From NCBI RefSeq assembly GCF_000190595.1, contig NC_015167.1, positions 3,022,501 through 3,086,500 on the forward strand: a stretch of 64,000 nt of DNA. Direction: 5' to 3'. The translations under genes and the position numbers were made by a program. The DNA comes from Cellulophaga lytica DSM 7489. GTDB lineage: Bacteria; Bacteroidota; Bacteroidia; Flavobacteriales; Flavobacteriaceae. A model generated the notes under the pieces. That model made no database searches and was not told the DNA's origin. It worked only from the letters and a program-made list of their open reading frames with translations. Below, piece by piece: positions 24,381 through 29,208 of the stretch (the stretch's first letter is position 1; each line of letters begins with the position of its first letter).

Positions 24381-24416
24381 AAAAAATGGAAAACCTATAC
24401 AGGTTTTCCATTTTTT
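24381..24416. terminator. Bidirectional terminator after glyA
   Basis: A perfect 16-bp stem (24381-24396 with 24401-24416), loop ATAC, with A and T runs at either end. Its right arm overlaps the stop codon of the leftward unknown gene. Confidence 0.92.
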
Positions 24417-25059
24417 ATATATGATCTATCATAAACAGATCACCTCTATTAGTGCTGTTGTTGCGCACATCATAAATAACGGCATCTTCTTCAGACTCAT
24501 AATAAAGTCCCCAGAATCCAAAGTAAGATTTTTCAGTTATATTGGTTAAGCTTATATTATCTTCAGATAAAATTGGCAAATGTATTTCTGTAGGTAATTC
24601 TAAATTTTCAGTCATTAAACATTCTACATTAGTAACTAACGTATCTAAAATGGCATCTAAGCTATTAACTATACTATTGTTGCATACTTTACTTATAATT
24701 ACAGATGTATCTGCTAAATAAATAGCACATTCAGCTATATCTACAAATTGTTCTGTATTACACCTTAACTTTTCTAAACTTTTGTAAAATTGCTCTAATC
24801 TAGATGAGTTTACATCTAATTTATCTTTTAACCAATTAGAGTTGTTGTAAAAACACACACCTTCTGATAGCCAAAAGTTAGATTGGAACTCAATACCTAT
24901 TTCAAAAGCATCTGGTTTATTGTTTAAGATCCTAATAAGAACTCTAGAAAAATATGCTTTTTCTAGTTCGTTTCTAAAAATTTCTAGTTGTTCTAATATA
25001 CACTCTGGGACATTATTAGAATAACGTATATCATTGTATTGCGATGGGTTAGACATCAT
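24415..25059 (-). CDS. Hypothetical protein, unknown function
   Basis: A 214-residue acidic, probably cytoplasmic protein with no signal peptide or membrane segment. The middle (about 85-150) is helical, with the stretch EQFVDIAECAIYLADTSVIIS. The C-terminal part carries Phe/Tyr-rich FGFWGLYYESEEDAVIYDV. I do not recognise the family. It lies 153 bases downstream of the NarL-type regulator gene, on the same strand, and is the last gene of the leftward signalling island, so it could be a target or accessory of that system. Its stop codon sits in the terminator shared with glyA. Confidence 0.5.
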   Translation of the reverse strand: MMSNPSQYNDIRYSNNVPECILEQLEIFRNELEKAYFSRVLIRILNNKPDAFEIGIEFQSNFWLSEGVCFYNNSNWLKDKLDVNSSRLEQFYKSLEKLRCNTEQFVDIAECAIYLADTSVIISKVCNNSIVNSLDAILDTLVTNVECLMTENLELPTEIHLPILSEDNISLTNITEKSYFGFWGLYYESEEDAVIYDVRNNSTNRGDLFMIDHI

Positions 25060-25212: not shown

Positions 25213-25878
25213 TTAAATAAAGCCCCTCCTTTTTGCCTCGTTAATTAAGGCAAGGTCATTTTCGTTTTCAATATCAAAAATAAATTTAAGTTTACGCTTT
25301 CTGGTTTCTATACCTGTTACAGATAAATTAACGTAATCTACTAAGTCTTTTGTTTTAATTCCTAATGATAAACGATATAGTATTTCTTTATCATCTTCAT
25401 TAATCATTATATTGTTAGTCATTGTTTTTCTAAAAACATCAATGGCAGATTTAGAATAGTATGTACTATCATTTAAAACATTATCTAACGCTTTTTCAAT
25501 CACTTCTTCATTAACTTCTGTTTTAACAATGTAGCCATCTGGGTTTACAGAAGAAAATATATTACTAATTCGCAAACTGTCGCTAAATGAAGATTGAAAT
25601 ATTATTTTTGTTTTAGGAGATATCTCTCTTAAAAGCATTCCTAAATGTTCTCCAGTTTTGTTTCCATCAATATTTTCTTTGTCTGGTTTTTCAATTTGTA
25701 TGTCTAAAAATGCAACATCAAAAATATTACTTTCAATTATTTTTTTAGCCTCTTGGTAGCTATTTGCGGTGGTTAAGTTAATATTATATTTAGCTGGGTT
25801 TATATCTGCAAATGTATACTGGTATCCTTTTAGTATAAGTTGATGATCATCAACAGCTAATATTTTTAGGGTTCGCAT
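25213..25878 (-). CDS. NarL/LuxR-like response regulator
   Basis: A 221-residue two-component regulator. The receiver has the acidic pair Asp10/Asp11, the phospho-acceptor Asp59 in VAFLDI, and the conserved lysine in GYIVKTE. An insertion just after Asp59 (PDKENIDGNKTGEH) is unusual. The C-terminal domain (about 155-221) is a LuxR-like helix-turn-helix with NLSVTGIETRKRKLKFIF, lacking the common 'GxSnkeIA' wording but with the same spacing. It is 23 bases downstream of the histidine kinase gene, which is its obvious partner. Confidence 0.85.
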   Translation of the reverse strand: MRTLKILAVDDHQLILKGYQYTFADINPAKYNINLTTANSYQEAKKIIESNIFDVAFLDIQIEKPDKENIDGNKTGEHLGMLLREISPKTKIIFQSSFSDSLRISNIFSSVNPDGYIVKTEVNEEVIEKALDNVLNDSTYYSKSAIDVFRKTMTNNIMINEDDKEILYRLSLGIKTKDLVDYVNLSVTGIETRKRKLKFIFDIENENDLALINEAKRRGFI

Positions 25879-25901: not shown

Positions 25902-27881
25902 TTATGAATTAAATACTTTTTTATCTTCTACAGGTATGGTAATGTAGATTTTTGTTCCTTCACCAATTTTACTCTCTATATTAACGTTTGCATTAATTTT
26001 ATTAGCTCTAGAGTAAATATTTTTAAGTCCAATACCTCTTTTTTTCTTTTGGAGGTTAAAACCTACACCATCATCAGATAAAATTACTGATAAATTTGAA
26101 TTCTTCATACTTAAATCTAATAAAATGTTTTCTGCTTTAGAATATTTTACACAGTTTTGTACACCTTCTTGTATTATTCTATATAGGTTAATTTTAATTT
26201 CTGCATTTAAGTAATCCCAATCTATTTTTTTATCAAACGTAAAGCTTGTTTTTATATTTGATGCTTTACTGGTATTGTGTAAAAGTTCTATAATAGAATT
26301 TGTAAAGTTTTGCATTTTTTTGGATGATGCAGCACTTAATGTATGTGATATTGTTCTAATTTCTTCTGCTGTTTCTTGTAATTGCTTTATAAGATCTAAA
26401 CGCTCTGCAATTGCTTCTTCATCTGCTCTTTTATTTGTGGCTTTTAAAATTAAACCTATACCAGTTAAGCTGCCAAGTACACCATCATGTAACTCCTGAG
26501 ATATGCGTAGTTGCTCTTCTTGTTTGGCTTGTGCAAGTTTTCCTTTTTGATCTAACATTAAGTTAAATGTTTCTAAGTTGGTTTCTTGCTGTTCTTGTTC
26601 AAATTTTAATTTCTGATTTTTTATATACTGACTACCAATTATAAAAATAGCAAAAGCCAATAGGAGGGCACCAATTACAAAAGATATTAGAATTTGTTTT
26701 TGTTCTTCTAATTCTTCTTTTTCTTCAATTACCTCGTCAGTTTCATATTTAATACGAGTAAATTTATCTTGTATCATACGCTCCTCTGCAATTAAGCTAT
26801 CATTTAAAACAATATATTTATGAGCATAGTTACTTGCATTTATGGGGTCTATAGATGTTAAAATGTCATATGCTTGTAATAATCGTTTATTGTTTTTGTT
26901 TGCTAAGGAATACTCTTCAGATTTTTTAGCGTTTTCTAACGCTTTAGAAGTATCCTTTTTTAAAATGTAAAACTCCGCTAAATTATAATGACTAATAGCT
27001 AATCCTGTGTTGTCTCCTAAGCTATCTCTAATTTGTAAGGCGCGTATTAATTGTTTTTCTACATTAATTGTATCTTTAATTTTTAACTTAGTATAGGCTA
27101 GGTTGTCTAAAACTTTAGCGTAGAATAATGCTTTTTTTTCATACAAACTGTCTACGGCTAACACTTTTTCATAGTTTTCTATTGCATTATCATAATCTTC
27201 TTTATCTCTATATACATTAGCAATATTGTTTACTAAGGTTGTATTTATTTTACTTTTAGGTTTAATCTTTTTGTAATATTCTAGTGCTTTATTATAGTAC
27301 TCTAAAGCTCTATCATGTTCTTTTAGTGCATTAGTAACTGATCCTAAATTGTTGTATGAACTATATAGTTCTAAATCTGAGTCTTCAACATCATCAAATA
27401 ATTCAATAGCTTTTATGGTAGATATTTCACTACCTCTATAATCTTTTACATGTGATTGTAAAATAGAGAGTGATTGAAGAACTGTACCTTCTTTTTTCTT
27501 CTTTTTTTGAAGAGCAAAAATGTTTTGTGCTTTTAAGTAGTAAACGTAACTACTGTCTACTTTTAATTTTTCGTGGAAAAAATATCCCAGATCCCAATAA
27601 GCATAAGCTAATAATGTAGAGTCTTTTTGTTTTAGAGATAACTCCATTACTTTTTTATTGGTTTCTCTAAAATTTAAGGAGTCGTCTTGTGTTAAATAAG
27701 TGTATGCAAGTGAGTGTAGTTGTCTTCTGTAAACAGAATCCTTTTTATGTTGCAAAAGGTTTGTAGTATCTTTTGTTTTTTGTTGATGCTTTGTAACTTC
27801 TACAAGCTGTTGCTTCTCCTTTTTTTGATTACAAGAAAATAGTAATACCGTAATAATAAGTAGCGTATATAATTTTTGCAC
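25902..27881 (-). CDS. TPR-containing sensor histidine kinase with lipoprotein signal (NarX/DesK-like HisKA_3)
   Basis: A 659-residue sensor. The signal peptide ends LLFSC (Cys17), so the N-terminus may be lipid-anchored outside the inner membrane. TPR repeats fill roughly residues 50-360, with clear units such as YNNLGSVTNALKEHDRALEYY. A membrane helix lies at about 397-420, then a coiled coil, then the HisKA_3 dimerisation domain with His465 in QELHDGVLGSL. The ATPase domain has EGVQNCVKYS (N box) and SDDGVGFNL (G1). This is the standard Bacteroidota TPR kinase design. It is followed by its NarL-type regulator. Confidence 0.9.
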   Translation of the reverse strand: MQKLYTLLIITVLLFSCNQKKEKQQLVEVTKHQQKTKDTTNLLQHKKDSVYRRQLHSLAYTYLTQDDSLNFRETNKKVMELSLKQKDSTLLAYAYWDLGYFFHEKLKVDSSYVYYLKAQNIFALQKKKKKEGTVLQSLSILQSHVKDYRGSEISTIKAIELFDDVEDSDLELYSSYNNLGSVTNALKEHDRALEYYNKALEYYKKIKPKSKINTTLVNNIANVYRDKEDYDNAIENYEKVLAVDSLYEKKALFYAKVLDNLAYTKLKIKDTINVEKQLIRALQIRDSLGDNTGLAISHYNLAEFYILKKDTSKALENAKKSEEYSLANKNNKRLLQAYDILTSIDPINASNYAHKYIVLNDSLIAEERMIQDKFTRIKYETDEVIEEKEELEEQKQILISFVIGALLLAFAIFIIGSQYIKNQKLKFEQEQQETNLETFNLMLDQKGKLAQAKQEEQLRISQELHDGVLGSLTGIGLILKATNKRADEEAIAERLDLIKQLQETAEEIRTISHTLSAASSKKMQNFTNSIIELLHNTSKASNIKTSFTFDKKIDWDYLNAEIKINLYRIIQEGVQNCVKYSKAENILLDLSMKNSNLSVILSDDGVGFNLQKKKRGIGLKNIYSRANKINANVNIESKIGEGTKIYITIPVEDKKVFNS

Positions 27882-27916: not shown

Positions 27917-27945
27917 AAAGCCTTAAATGTTAAATTTAAGGCTTT
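27917..27945 (-). terminator. Terminator after the repeat lipoprotein gene
   Basis: A perfect 12-bp stem (27917-27928 with 27934-27945), loop GTTAA, followed by a T7 run on the minus strand. It separates the repeat lipoprotein transcript from the kinase gene. Confidence 0.82.
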
Positions 27946-27972: not shown

Positions 27973-28344
27973 TTAGTCTACTGCACCACCACTACCTTTT
28001 GGCAATTCAACTTCATCGTCATCAGTACTAACTTCACCACCACTACCTTTTGGCAATTCAACTTCATCATCATCAGTACCAACTTCACCGCCGCTACCTT
28101 TTGGAAATTCAACTTCATCATCATCAGTACTAACTTCACCGCCGCTACCTTTTGGCAATTCAACTTCATCGTCATCAGTACCAACTTCACCGCCACTACC
28201 TTTTGGAAATTCAACTTCATCATCATCAGTAGCATTAATATTTTCATATAAAGCGTCATCAGATGCACTGTCTACATCACAAGAGAATAATAATAGGCTA
28301 AAGATAAATAATACAAGTAGGTTAATTAAATTTTTCATAATCAT
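27973..28344 (-). CDS. Small lipoprotein built of five 17-residue acidic/glycine repeats
   Basis: A 123-residue protein (121 if the second ATG at 28338 is used). The lipoprotein signal ends LLFSC; the mature protein begins CDVDSASDD, an acidic lead like the surface-export signals described for Bacteroidota lipoproteins. From residue 39 to the end it is five head-to-tail repeats of TDDDEVE(F/L)PKGSGGEV(G/S), alternating F...G and L...S forms. The function is unknown; the pattern suggests a flexible, calcium-binding or surface-exposed tail. It lies between a LytTR regulator gene (132 bases upstream) and a sensor kinase gene (downstream beyond a terminator). Confidence 0.75.
   Translation of the reverse strand: MIMKNLINLLVLFIFSLLLFSCDVDSASDDALYENINATDDDEVEFPKGSGGEVGTDDDEVELPKGSGGEVSTDDDEVEFPKGSGGEVGTDDDEVELPKGSGGEVSTDDDEVELPKGSGGAVD
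27976..28230 (-). repeat. Five tandem 51-bp coding repeats
   Basis: The DNA behind the five 17-residue protein repeats. Copies differ by only a few bases, mostly third-position changes plus the F/L and G/S swaps. The F-G/L-S alternation suggests that a two-unit (102-bp) block was itself duplicated. Confidence 0.9.
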
Positions 28345-28476
28345 TTTTTTTGGTTAAATATATTTTTATTGCTTTGCTAAAGTATAATTATTTACTGTCT
28401 GTATAAGTAAGAAATTATATCTATTAGTGTAAGTCATATATCTGTTAGTGTTTGGGGTGGTTTTGTTAGTTTTTGT

Positions 28477-29208
28477 TCAATTCTGAGTAGAAATTGTATT
28501 TTTGCTTATCTTATTTTTAATAATATCTATTTTTTGTTTGTATGATTTTGAGAATGGTAGTTTAACATCGCTCTTTTTAATAACGCAGACATTTTTACCA
28601 TAATTAATGCCAGATACATATGTGCTATTTATAATGTAACTTTGATGAATTCTTATAAAGTTTTCAGGTAGTTTGTTTTCAAAAGTCTTAAGAGTTTTAA
28701 AGGCGCTTACTTTTTTACCACTATTAAGGTATATATCTGTAGCATTATTGTCTGCTTTAAGGTATAATATATCTGATGTTTCTATGTATTGGTAATCTTT
28801 ATATGATTGAAGGCATAATGTTGGTGAAGTTTCTTTTTTGGGAGTTTGCTTTCTAATTTTAAAAACAGCTTTTCTAATATCAAACTCATTATATGGTAGC
28901 AACCAATAATCAAAAAAACCATTTTTGATTGCCTCATACGCATATTCTTTATTTTTGCTTACACCTATAATTAAAGGAATTTGATTTATGTATTGATGTA
29001 AATCTGAAACCATTTGAAAATACTCTAAAGCATTTTTTTGAAGATCTATAAAAATGATGTCGGGACCATACTTAAGTATACTGTTTAATGCAGTATTAGA
29101 ATTTTCTGAAATATTTACGCACATAAAATCCTTGTACTCTTCTAAATAATACTGAAGCTGTAAATTAGAAGAAGCAGAGTTTCCTATAATTGTATATGAA
29201 TAATTCAT
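28477..29208 (-). CDS. LytTR-domain regulator with a degenerate receiver
   Basis: A 243-residue protein with an N-terminal receiver-like domain (about 1-115) and a C-terminal LytTR DNA-binding domain (about 138-238; YLKADNNATDIYL, FIRIHQSYIIN). The receiver keeps Asp55 in IIFIDL, but the acidic pair near residue 10 is missing (IIGNSAS in place of IxxVDDE). The conserved lysine before Pro is replaced: DYWLLPY instead of DYLxKPF. It is therefore probably not phosphorylated in the usual way. It lies upstream of the repeat lipoprotein gene on the same strand and may control it. No kinase gene is directly adjacent. Confidence 0.8.
   Translation of the reverse strand: MNYSYTIIGNSASSNLQLQYYLEEYKDFMCVNISENSNTALNSILKYGPDIIFIDLQKNALEYFQMVSDLHQYINQIPLIIGVSKNKEYAYEAIKNGFFDYWLLPYNEFDIRKAVFKIRKQTPKKETSPTLCLQSYKDYQYIETSDILYLKADNNATDIYLNSGKKVSAFKTLKTFENKLPENFIRIHQSYIINSTYVSGINYGKNVCVIKKSDVKLPFSKSYKQKIDIIKNKISKNTISTQN

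Follow-up and report, generated by a model that had tools for sequence, protein, structure and literature searches.

Comparison of protein sequences and gene neighbourhoods places a small repeat lipoprotein of Cellulophaga lytica DSM 7489 in a large peptide family whose members are linked to kinases and mostly carry a single unit. We propose that this protein, as a peptide in multiple copies, acts on the TPR histidine kinase encoded beside it as a ligand or modulator, a reading that we regard as fairly probable. Only tentatively do we extend it to an undescribed peptide-signalling system of many Flavobacteriaceae genera, in which a lipidated or secreted precursor would show or release up to ten short acidic peptides to the exported TPR part of a histidine kinase, under autoregulation by a LytTR protein. 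The gene lies in a 64,000-nucleotide stretch of contig NC_015167.1 (positions 3,022,501 to 3,086,500), referred to below as the window. The conserved gene order comprises a LytTR gene, direct repeats with a spacing of 21 bp, the peptide gene, a terminator-like hairpin, the TPR kinase gene and a response regulator gene. The corresponding features of the window are listed in Table 1.

Table 1. Features of the peptide-kinase locus in the window, in window coordinates
Feature	Position	Strand	Basis
LytTR regulator, 243 aa, proposed regulator of the peptide gene	28477..29208	-	Pfam LytTR 1.7e-17
Direct repeat AAACTAACAAAA, operator-like copy 1	28461..28472	-	matrix search
Direct repeat ACACTAACAGAT, operator-like copy 2	28440..28451	-	offset test and matrix search
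Direct repeat ACACTAATAGAT, operator-like copy 3, 21 bp from copy 2	28419..28430	-	offset test and matrix search
Exported lipoprotein, 123 aa, proposed multi-copy peptide ligand	27973..28344	-	ORF and translation; orthologues in the genus
Signal peptide and lipobox to Cys22, start possibly Met3	28279..28344	-	MIMKNLINLLVLFIFSLLLFSC, by eye
Lead DVDSASDDALYENINA	28231..28278	-	alignment of 23 sequences
Unit 1 TDDDEVEFPKGSGGEVG	28180..28230	-	unit comparison
Unit 2 TDDDEVELPKGSGGEVS	28129..28179	-	unit comparison
Unit 3 TDDDEVEFPKGSGGEVG	28078..28128	-	unit comparison
Unit 4 TDDDEVELPKGSGGEVS	28027..28077	-	unit comparison
Unit 5 TDDDEVELPKGSGGAVD	27976..28026	-	unit comparison
Terminator-like hairpin between peptide and kinase genes, then T run	27917..27945	-	12-bp stem
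TPR sensor histidine kinase, 659 aa, GTG start	25902..27881	-	TPR, HisKA_3 and HATPase by Pfam
Response regulator, downstream of kinase	25213..25878	-	Pfam Response_reg 8e-09
Conserved protein of no known family, downstream of regulator, possible further part	24415..25059	-	61/61 full-length loci

The window protein and its repeat array

ORF, translation and TRF agreed on a small lipoprotein with five units of 17 residues (51 bp), as a preliminary description of the sequence had reported. TRF placed the array at 27980-28231 with a period of 51, 4.9 copies, 93% matches and a score of 427; the remaining three rows for the 64-kb window scored only 50-56. By eye, the lipobox reads LLFSC. The lead that follows is acidic and has 16 residues, and in the alignment of 23 sequences Asp30 is invariant across the family and Tyr33 nearly invariant. 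The F-G/L-S alternation described earlier was found in units 1-4 and breaks off at unit 5, which ends in GGAVD. Similarly, the units are near-identical, as had been stated, at the protein level, but they are less alike at the DNA level, with 26 synonymous versus 20 amino-acid pairwise differences among them and a pS of 0.24. Recent duplication as the sole cause of identical units was ruled out, since many synonymous sites differ between them. The array does not look like an assembly artefact either, because synonymous changes distinguish its units, the source genome is one contig of 3,765,936 bases with 99.99% completeness, and complete arrays of like kind are present in four other Cellulophaga species (3, 4, 5 and 6 units).

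Linkage of the peptide gene to a TPR histidine kinase

Within Cellulophaga, the window protein was matched at E 0.1 or better in 15 of 18 genomes. The matches were of two kinds, long repeated proteins and short ones of about 50-60 residues, which have in common a lipobox, a D.LY-like lead and, in most cases, an acidic tail. Orthologues of the window TPR kinase were present in 18 of 18 genomes, and in all 18 a member of the peptide family stands directly upstream of the TPR kinase and the response regulator, a count that includes two genomes (G005, G014) in which the array is divided between contig ends, its head on one contig and its tail on another, and was taken as one gene, and one (G013) in which the tail region is masked by N. 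The tail is single in ten of these genomes, for example CTSEASQDEDQLYVNSPVACDDCGEVVTKGN, repeated in seven and masked in one. In place, the five-unit tail of the window corresponds to the single C-terminal tail of those ten. Copy number varies among the related species from 3 to 6 units in complete arrays: those with 17-residue units have 3, 4, 5, 5 and 6, one broken array has about 5, and one array is made of 11-residue units (TDNDQIKPVGF).

Further TPR kinases of the genus, paralogues of this one, are each accompanied by a short peptide as well, often with a tail like ATEGDDGDI. The kinase search in the genus gave 72 matches, and at the loci examined, which were most of these, other kinase subfamilies had no such peptide. 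A peptide profile likewise found no member in 24 loci of other subfamilies (one without a detectable kinase); these loci were grouped after the absence had already been noticed, and the result is a confirmation, not a blind control. In two Cellulophaga (L060:1-6401 and L061:1-6301) a second kinase paralogue is accompanied by a different lipoprotein of 79-80 residues, the end of which overlaps the kinase frame.

Beyond this set, named loci were chosen by alignment of the response regulator, not of the peptide, as the best 80 of 171 relatives, with Cellulophaga contributing 10 of the 80. Six loci that end inside or at the kinase (L110, L116, L127, L159, L160, L165) were uninformative. A small exported ORF or an array end was found upstream of the kinase in 73 of the 74 informative loci among these best 80 of 171, with the N-terminus in view in 66 and the array end alone in 7 (L089, L092, L109, L119, L139, L146, L154). 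The single exception, Sediminicola luteus (L137:4985-6660), has a kinase frame without the TPR part, no peptide and no LytTR gene. Here the proposed input half was apparently lost naturally; since peptide, TPR part and LytTR gene disappeared in one apparent contiguous deletion, this locus does not count as independent support.

The linkage was also seen in the reverse direction. At 30 of 40 loci found with the peptide profile, a TPR-kinase open frame on the same strand starts within 140 bp; these 40 were the best small-ORF matches and five weaker ones from 149 genomes, and some of their species overlap with the regulator-fetched set. The ten loci without a kinase comprise one that is cut short by a contig end (L219), three good matches with full flanks and no TPR kinase found alongside (L206, L224, L227), which are possible orphan peptides after kinase loss, and six weak matches. 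Four of these six (L232, L234, L235, L236) are of another kind and have a conserved place of their own. At L234:4497-5650 (G038:C1, about 3188496-3189649) six nearly identical genes for 49-residue lipoproteins with SDIKVP tails are arranged in tandem, about 200 bp apart, and flanked by TsaE-like and alanine-dehydrogenase-like genes (names by eye). L232, L235 and L236 have single genes with IDK.DI tails at the same place, and the lipoproteins of all four loci form a related-looking class without kinase.

A phylum-wide profile search gave matches at E 1e-5 in 9 of 296 genomes, of which 7 are from the same family and 2 match the first 31 positions only. The peptide family therefore looks largely confined to Flavobacteriaceae, although divergent members could escape so short a profile. 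The family-level search, with 96 of 149 genomes at E 0.01, contained many signal-peptide-only matches and is unusable as a count.

Amplification of the units and selection on them

Two or more units are present in 30 of the 73 peptide-bearing loci. Unit lengths of 11, 12, 13, 14, 17, 28 and 42 residues occur across the lineages. In Zobellia the units have 14 residues and are present in 5, 7, 10 and 6 copies, with one Z. uliginosa genome being single-unit, and in Arenibacter they have 28 residues, with 4 to 7 copies in eight uninterrupted arrays and a looser pair of units in A. nanhaiticus. Units of 42 residues are found in a Maribacter, of 13 in strain D16 and of 12 in CP2B and a Croceivirga; the repeats of Zeaxanthinibacter are imperfect. 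Because unit lengths differ between lineages, these sequences point to separate origins of the arrays. At least 7 changes of repeat state, gains or losses, were counted with unknown rows excluded on an 83-row quick tree of the C-terminal part of the kinase and the regulator, in which 21 of 80 inner branches are open; parsimony counts on a tree with such open forks cannot tell gains from losses.

Comparison of the units within 20 arrays gave a pS of 0.400 versus a pN of 0.057, both from pairwise counts, which are not independent. The pN/pS ratio of individual arrays ranged from 0 to 0.27, except for 0.47 in L130, where the first unit is out of register with the others and inflates pN (0.25). 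Three arrays showed zero amino-acid differences together with 83, 73 and 20 synonymous pairwise differences, the first of them being the seven-unit array of Zobellia russellii. Since synonymous sites differ and amino-acid sites hardly do, every unit is, as judged from these counts, maintained by selection on the protein. The arrays are therefore a clean case of units kept alike by protein selection and not only by recent DNA copying, and tandem units that are each under purifying selection are what would be expected of a multi-unit precursor. A role as a spacer, suggested in the preliminary description, is unsupported, because a spacer explains neither the amino-acid constraint on every unit nor the fixed place before the TPR kinase. 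Its alternative suggestion, a peptide source, is the option favoured overall, with processing as a possible step.

The constraint is not uniform along the unit. In the eight Arenibacter arrays, with the last unit of each excluded, 16 of 1185 residue comparisons differed in the core, that is, the first 15 residues, such as ATDGDNVPKDRRDPP (1.4%), and 94 of 1027 in the linker (9.2%). As the core varies less than the linker, it looks like the functional part of the unit.

The kinase and its sensor part

Inspection of the kinase by eye revealed an export signal of its own with a lipobox; a single hydrophobic helix precedes the kinase part, and the TPR part should therefore be located outside the cytoplasm. 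A model of the sensor (58 sequences) is a TPR superhelix with a pLDDT of 89.9 and a pTM of 0.82. Foldseek returned designed TPR proteins as best matches; after them came peptide complexes of LGN with its partners, of kinesin light chain with its cargo and of phage Rap with its pheromone. The modelled fold is consistent with peptide binding; this result is generic, because the ligands of TPR folds are diverse and designed TPRs led the matches. The adjacent residues Asn204 and Asn205 are invariant in the 58 sensors. Accelerated evolution of the sensor, considered as a sign of ligand-receptor coevolution, was not found: its divergence relative to the kinase part was not above that in two peptide-free kinase groups (1.43 versus 1.76 and 1.27 versus 1.48; 15 genome pairs each, with one row of the second control group, L077, only about 25% identical to the others and possibly not an orthologue). 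Since the sensor is not more divergent than the controls, there is no sign of a ligand-receptor arms race.

Kinase genes of the Cellulophaga clade with repeats (27881 in the window; L029, L032, L033, L034) have no ATG at the likely start, and by eye GTG seems to be used, which perhaps keeps the kinase level low. The conserved protein encoded downstream of the regulator (24415-25059) matched no family in Pfam or NCBIfam. When five window proteins were searched against anti-phage families, the sole match was the receiver part of the regulator, at 16.7 bits.

Regulation of the peptide gene

A relative of the LytTR gene is present upstream in 60 of 61 full-length loci. The receiver domain of the window LytTR protein scores 23.8 bits where Pfam requires 30.2, and by eye the usual N-terminal acidic pair is absent. 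With so weak a receiver and without this pair, the protein may not be phosphorylated. In several congeners (for example L029:4166-5680) a gene for a 504-residue lipoprotein lies between the thioesterase-like gene and the LytTR gene; the window is without it and has a 460-base gap with no listed ORF instead.

The distance from the LytTR stop to the peptide start is 128-155 bp in 66 loci. In these 66 promoter regions, 10-bp self-matches at an offset of 21 had a mean of 7.67 versus 5.6-6.6 at the other offsets between 11 and 44, and 12 regions reached at least 9 matches at offset 21 versus at most 2 at other offsets. The refined operator matrix reads roughly ATACTCACARAA. For the ranking it was trained without the window sequence but with its congeners, and the window promoter copies (28419-28472) came first in the 64 kb with pair scores of 19.8 and 18.8; the runner-up 21-bp pair scored 8.2 and the best 20- or 22-bp pair elsewhere 13.8. 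The spacing count obtained with the matrix, 51 of 66, is partly circular, since 21-bp pairs were used for training. LytTR operators are summarized in PMC6193735 as two 9-bp repeats that are mostly separated by 12 bp, and therefore have a 21-bp period. The direct repeats before the peptide gene show this geometry and are operator-like; we take them as a putative LytTR operator.

A hairpin and a T run follow the peptide stop codon in 63 of 71 loci (one genome being counted twice, L049 = L108) versus 4.6% of shuffles. With the operator-like repeats before it and the hairpin after it, the peptide gene appears to be regulated as a separate unit; the kinase would then be expressed via read-through or from its own promoter. 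The -7 promoter box of Bacteroidota, TAnnTTTG, was found exactly in 8 of the 66 promoter regions versus a shuffle mean of 2.3, which was too weak to use.

These features also suit a protein that is an output of the circuit and not its input, namely a regulated surface product such as an acidic coat or tail under control of the LytTR protein or the kinase, whose adjacency to the kinase reflects co-regulation. An operator indeed shows that the peptide gene is regulated, not that its product acts as an input; in addition, the hairpin before the kinase gene suggests a separate, abundant transcript, and the short tails have a median net charge of 8 negative (n=47). A coat that depends on charge alone should, however, tolerate drift, whereas the unit core is constrained and the Arenibacter linker freer, and the peptide is found beside TPR kinases from two distinct subfamilies. 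We consider an output role unlikely.

Export and lipidation

RcsF and NlpE are lipoproteins that act as envelope-stress reporters. If the window protein belonged to this type, a breakdown of outer-membrane or lipoprotein traffic would make it activate the kinase, and both the adjoining exported TPR sensor and the lipobox, found in the window protein as well as in 44 of 66 named-locus orthologues with the N-terminus in view (43 by script, L151 by eye), agree with such a role. The lipobox Cys is missing, however, from the other 22, all from Arenibacter or Maribacter, which retain a signal-like hydrophobic start, the tail unit and the linkage. Lipid anchoring is on this pattern not essential for the role of the family, and a lipidated input in the manner of RcsF and NlpE is not a family-wide property. 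Moreover, no folded domain is apparent and the amplification of the units would be left unexplained, which makes a stress reporter improbable.

Lipoprotein export signals are given in PMC5080379 as K-(D/E)2 or Q-A-(D/E)2 for Capnocytophaga and as SDDFE for Flavobacterium johnsoniae. A classical signal of this sort is not evident in DVDSASDD. Among the neighbouring genes read by eye no modifying enzyme was recognized, leaving RiPP-like maturation unsupported, nor was a dedicated protease or exporter.

Family and metal-binding searches

The window protein reached the cutoff of no family in Pfam or NCBIfam, the sole Pfam match having an E of 2.8 and the NCBIfam matches lying far below their cutoffs, in line with the earlier remark that no family of this kind was known. 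A calcium-binding tail had also been considered; EF-hand, RTX, dockerin and TSP_3 gave no Pfam match at E up to 10 in seven proteins, which speaks against it. A relative from Maribacter, which carries three CxxC motifs, passes PyrI_C, a metal-binding domain family, with a sum of 32.7 bits over three stretches versus a cutoff of 23.4; its zinc-ribbon matches, several in number, are below cutoff. An Arenibacter relative reached 19.1 against a cutoff of 19 for aSelB_III, a match taken as chance in a repeat protein. Both passes are probably motif or repeat effects. Binding of calcium, zinc or another metal by the acidic units or by the CxxC tails of relatives would fit the Asp clusters, the CxxC motif in 20 of 47 short tails and the matches of the Maribacter relative, but the window protein belongs to no metal family in these searches, and CxxC and TDGD/TDDD tails interchange in the same syntenic gene, so that we regard it as very improbable; for the relatives with CxxC tails a metal role is conceivable.

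Discussion

For the peptide-ligand reading we propose the following sequence of events. The LytTR protein would bind the direct repeats and drive the peptide gene, and the hairpin would let the peptide mRNA exceed the kinase mRNA. The exported acidic units, either lipid-tethered or proteolytically released, would bind, outside the cytoplasm, in the groove on the concave side of the TPR superhelix, upon which the kinase would alter the phosphorylation of its response regulator. Repetition of the unit would raise the dose of the ligand or its avidity per precursor, and the signal might either pass between cells or report only on the cell's own envelope. Binding, processing, release of the units, the direction of signalling and cell-to-cell transfer are what we infer from the sequences. 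A common ligand chemistry is not evident across the family, because tails range from TDGD to CxxC types.

The locus can be compared with several known systems. In RRNPP systems (Rap-Phr, NprR, PlcR, Rgg, ComR), a small propeptide gene adjoins the gene of a TPR receptor (PMC10075063), and here too a small exported peptide gene adjoins that of a TPR protein. RRNPP receptors are cytoplasmic and answer an imported peptide, whereas the TPR part here is apparently exported and fused to a histidine kinase (TPR, HisKA_3, HATPase) in place of an HTH or phosphatase receptor. The likeness extends to the groove of the Rap TPR, which binds a linear peptide in the Rap-pheromone structures found among the Foldseek matches; a further difference is that the organisms here are Gram-negative and the peptide is in many cases a lipoprotein.

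AgrBDCA and ComCDE are peptide two-component systems, and AgrC and ComD have polytopic membrane sensors. As in these systems, a peptide gene, a histidine kinase and a LytTR regulator share the locus, and the 9+12 bp direct-repeat geometry outlined in PMC6193735 is found before the regulated gene as a putative operator. In contrast to them, a TPR sensor takes the place of the polytopic membrane sensor, and there is a second regulator, downstream of the kinase, without a LytTR domain. No AgrB-like or ComAB-like maturation gene was recognized by eye beside the kinase; the family searches covered five window proteins.

Yeast alpha-factor and multi-core RiPP precursors carry many near-identical units per precursor. 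The present units resemble them in being alike within a species and different between species, and differ in that processing sites or modifying enzymes were not identified and that the signal is that of a lipoprotein. The signal-peptide part of a single-unit orthologue matched the PG1828 family lipoprotein (NF050142) at E 4.7e-6 and 27.2 bits, but this is below the 50-bit cutoff and covers residues 1-28 only. In the open-licence literature, no such peptide-kinase pair for Bacteroidota was found in the titles and the starts of abstracts among the matches listed, and the peptide family is apparently undescribed.

The group is known for the degradation of marine polysaccharides. As proposed here, the locus works like peptide two-component and RRNPP systems and fits neither definition fully. 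One conserved locus supplies a peptide sequence, a candidate receptor, a candidate regulator and a putative operator, which makes the idea directly testable. An extracytoplasmic TPR receptor paired with a small exported peptide would join the RRNPP theme of Gram-positive bacteria to two-component signalling.
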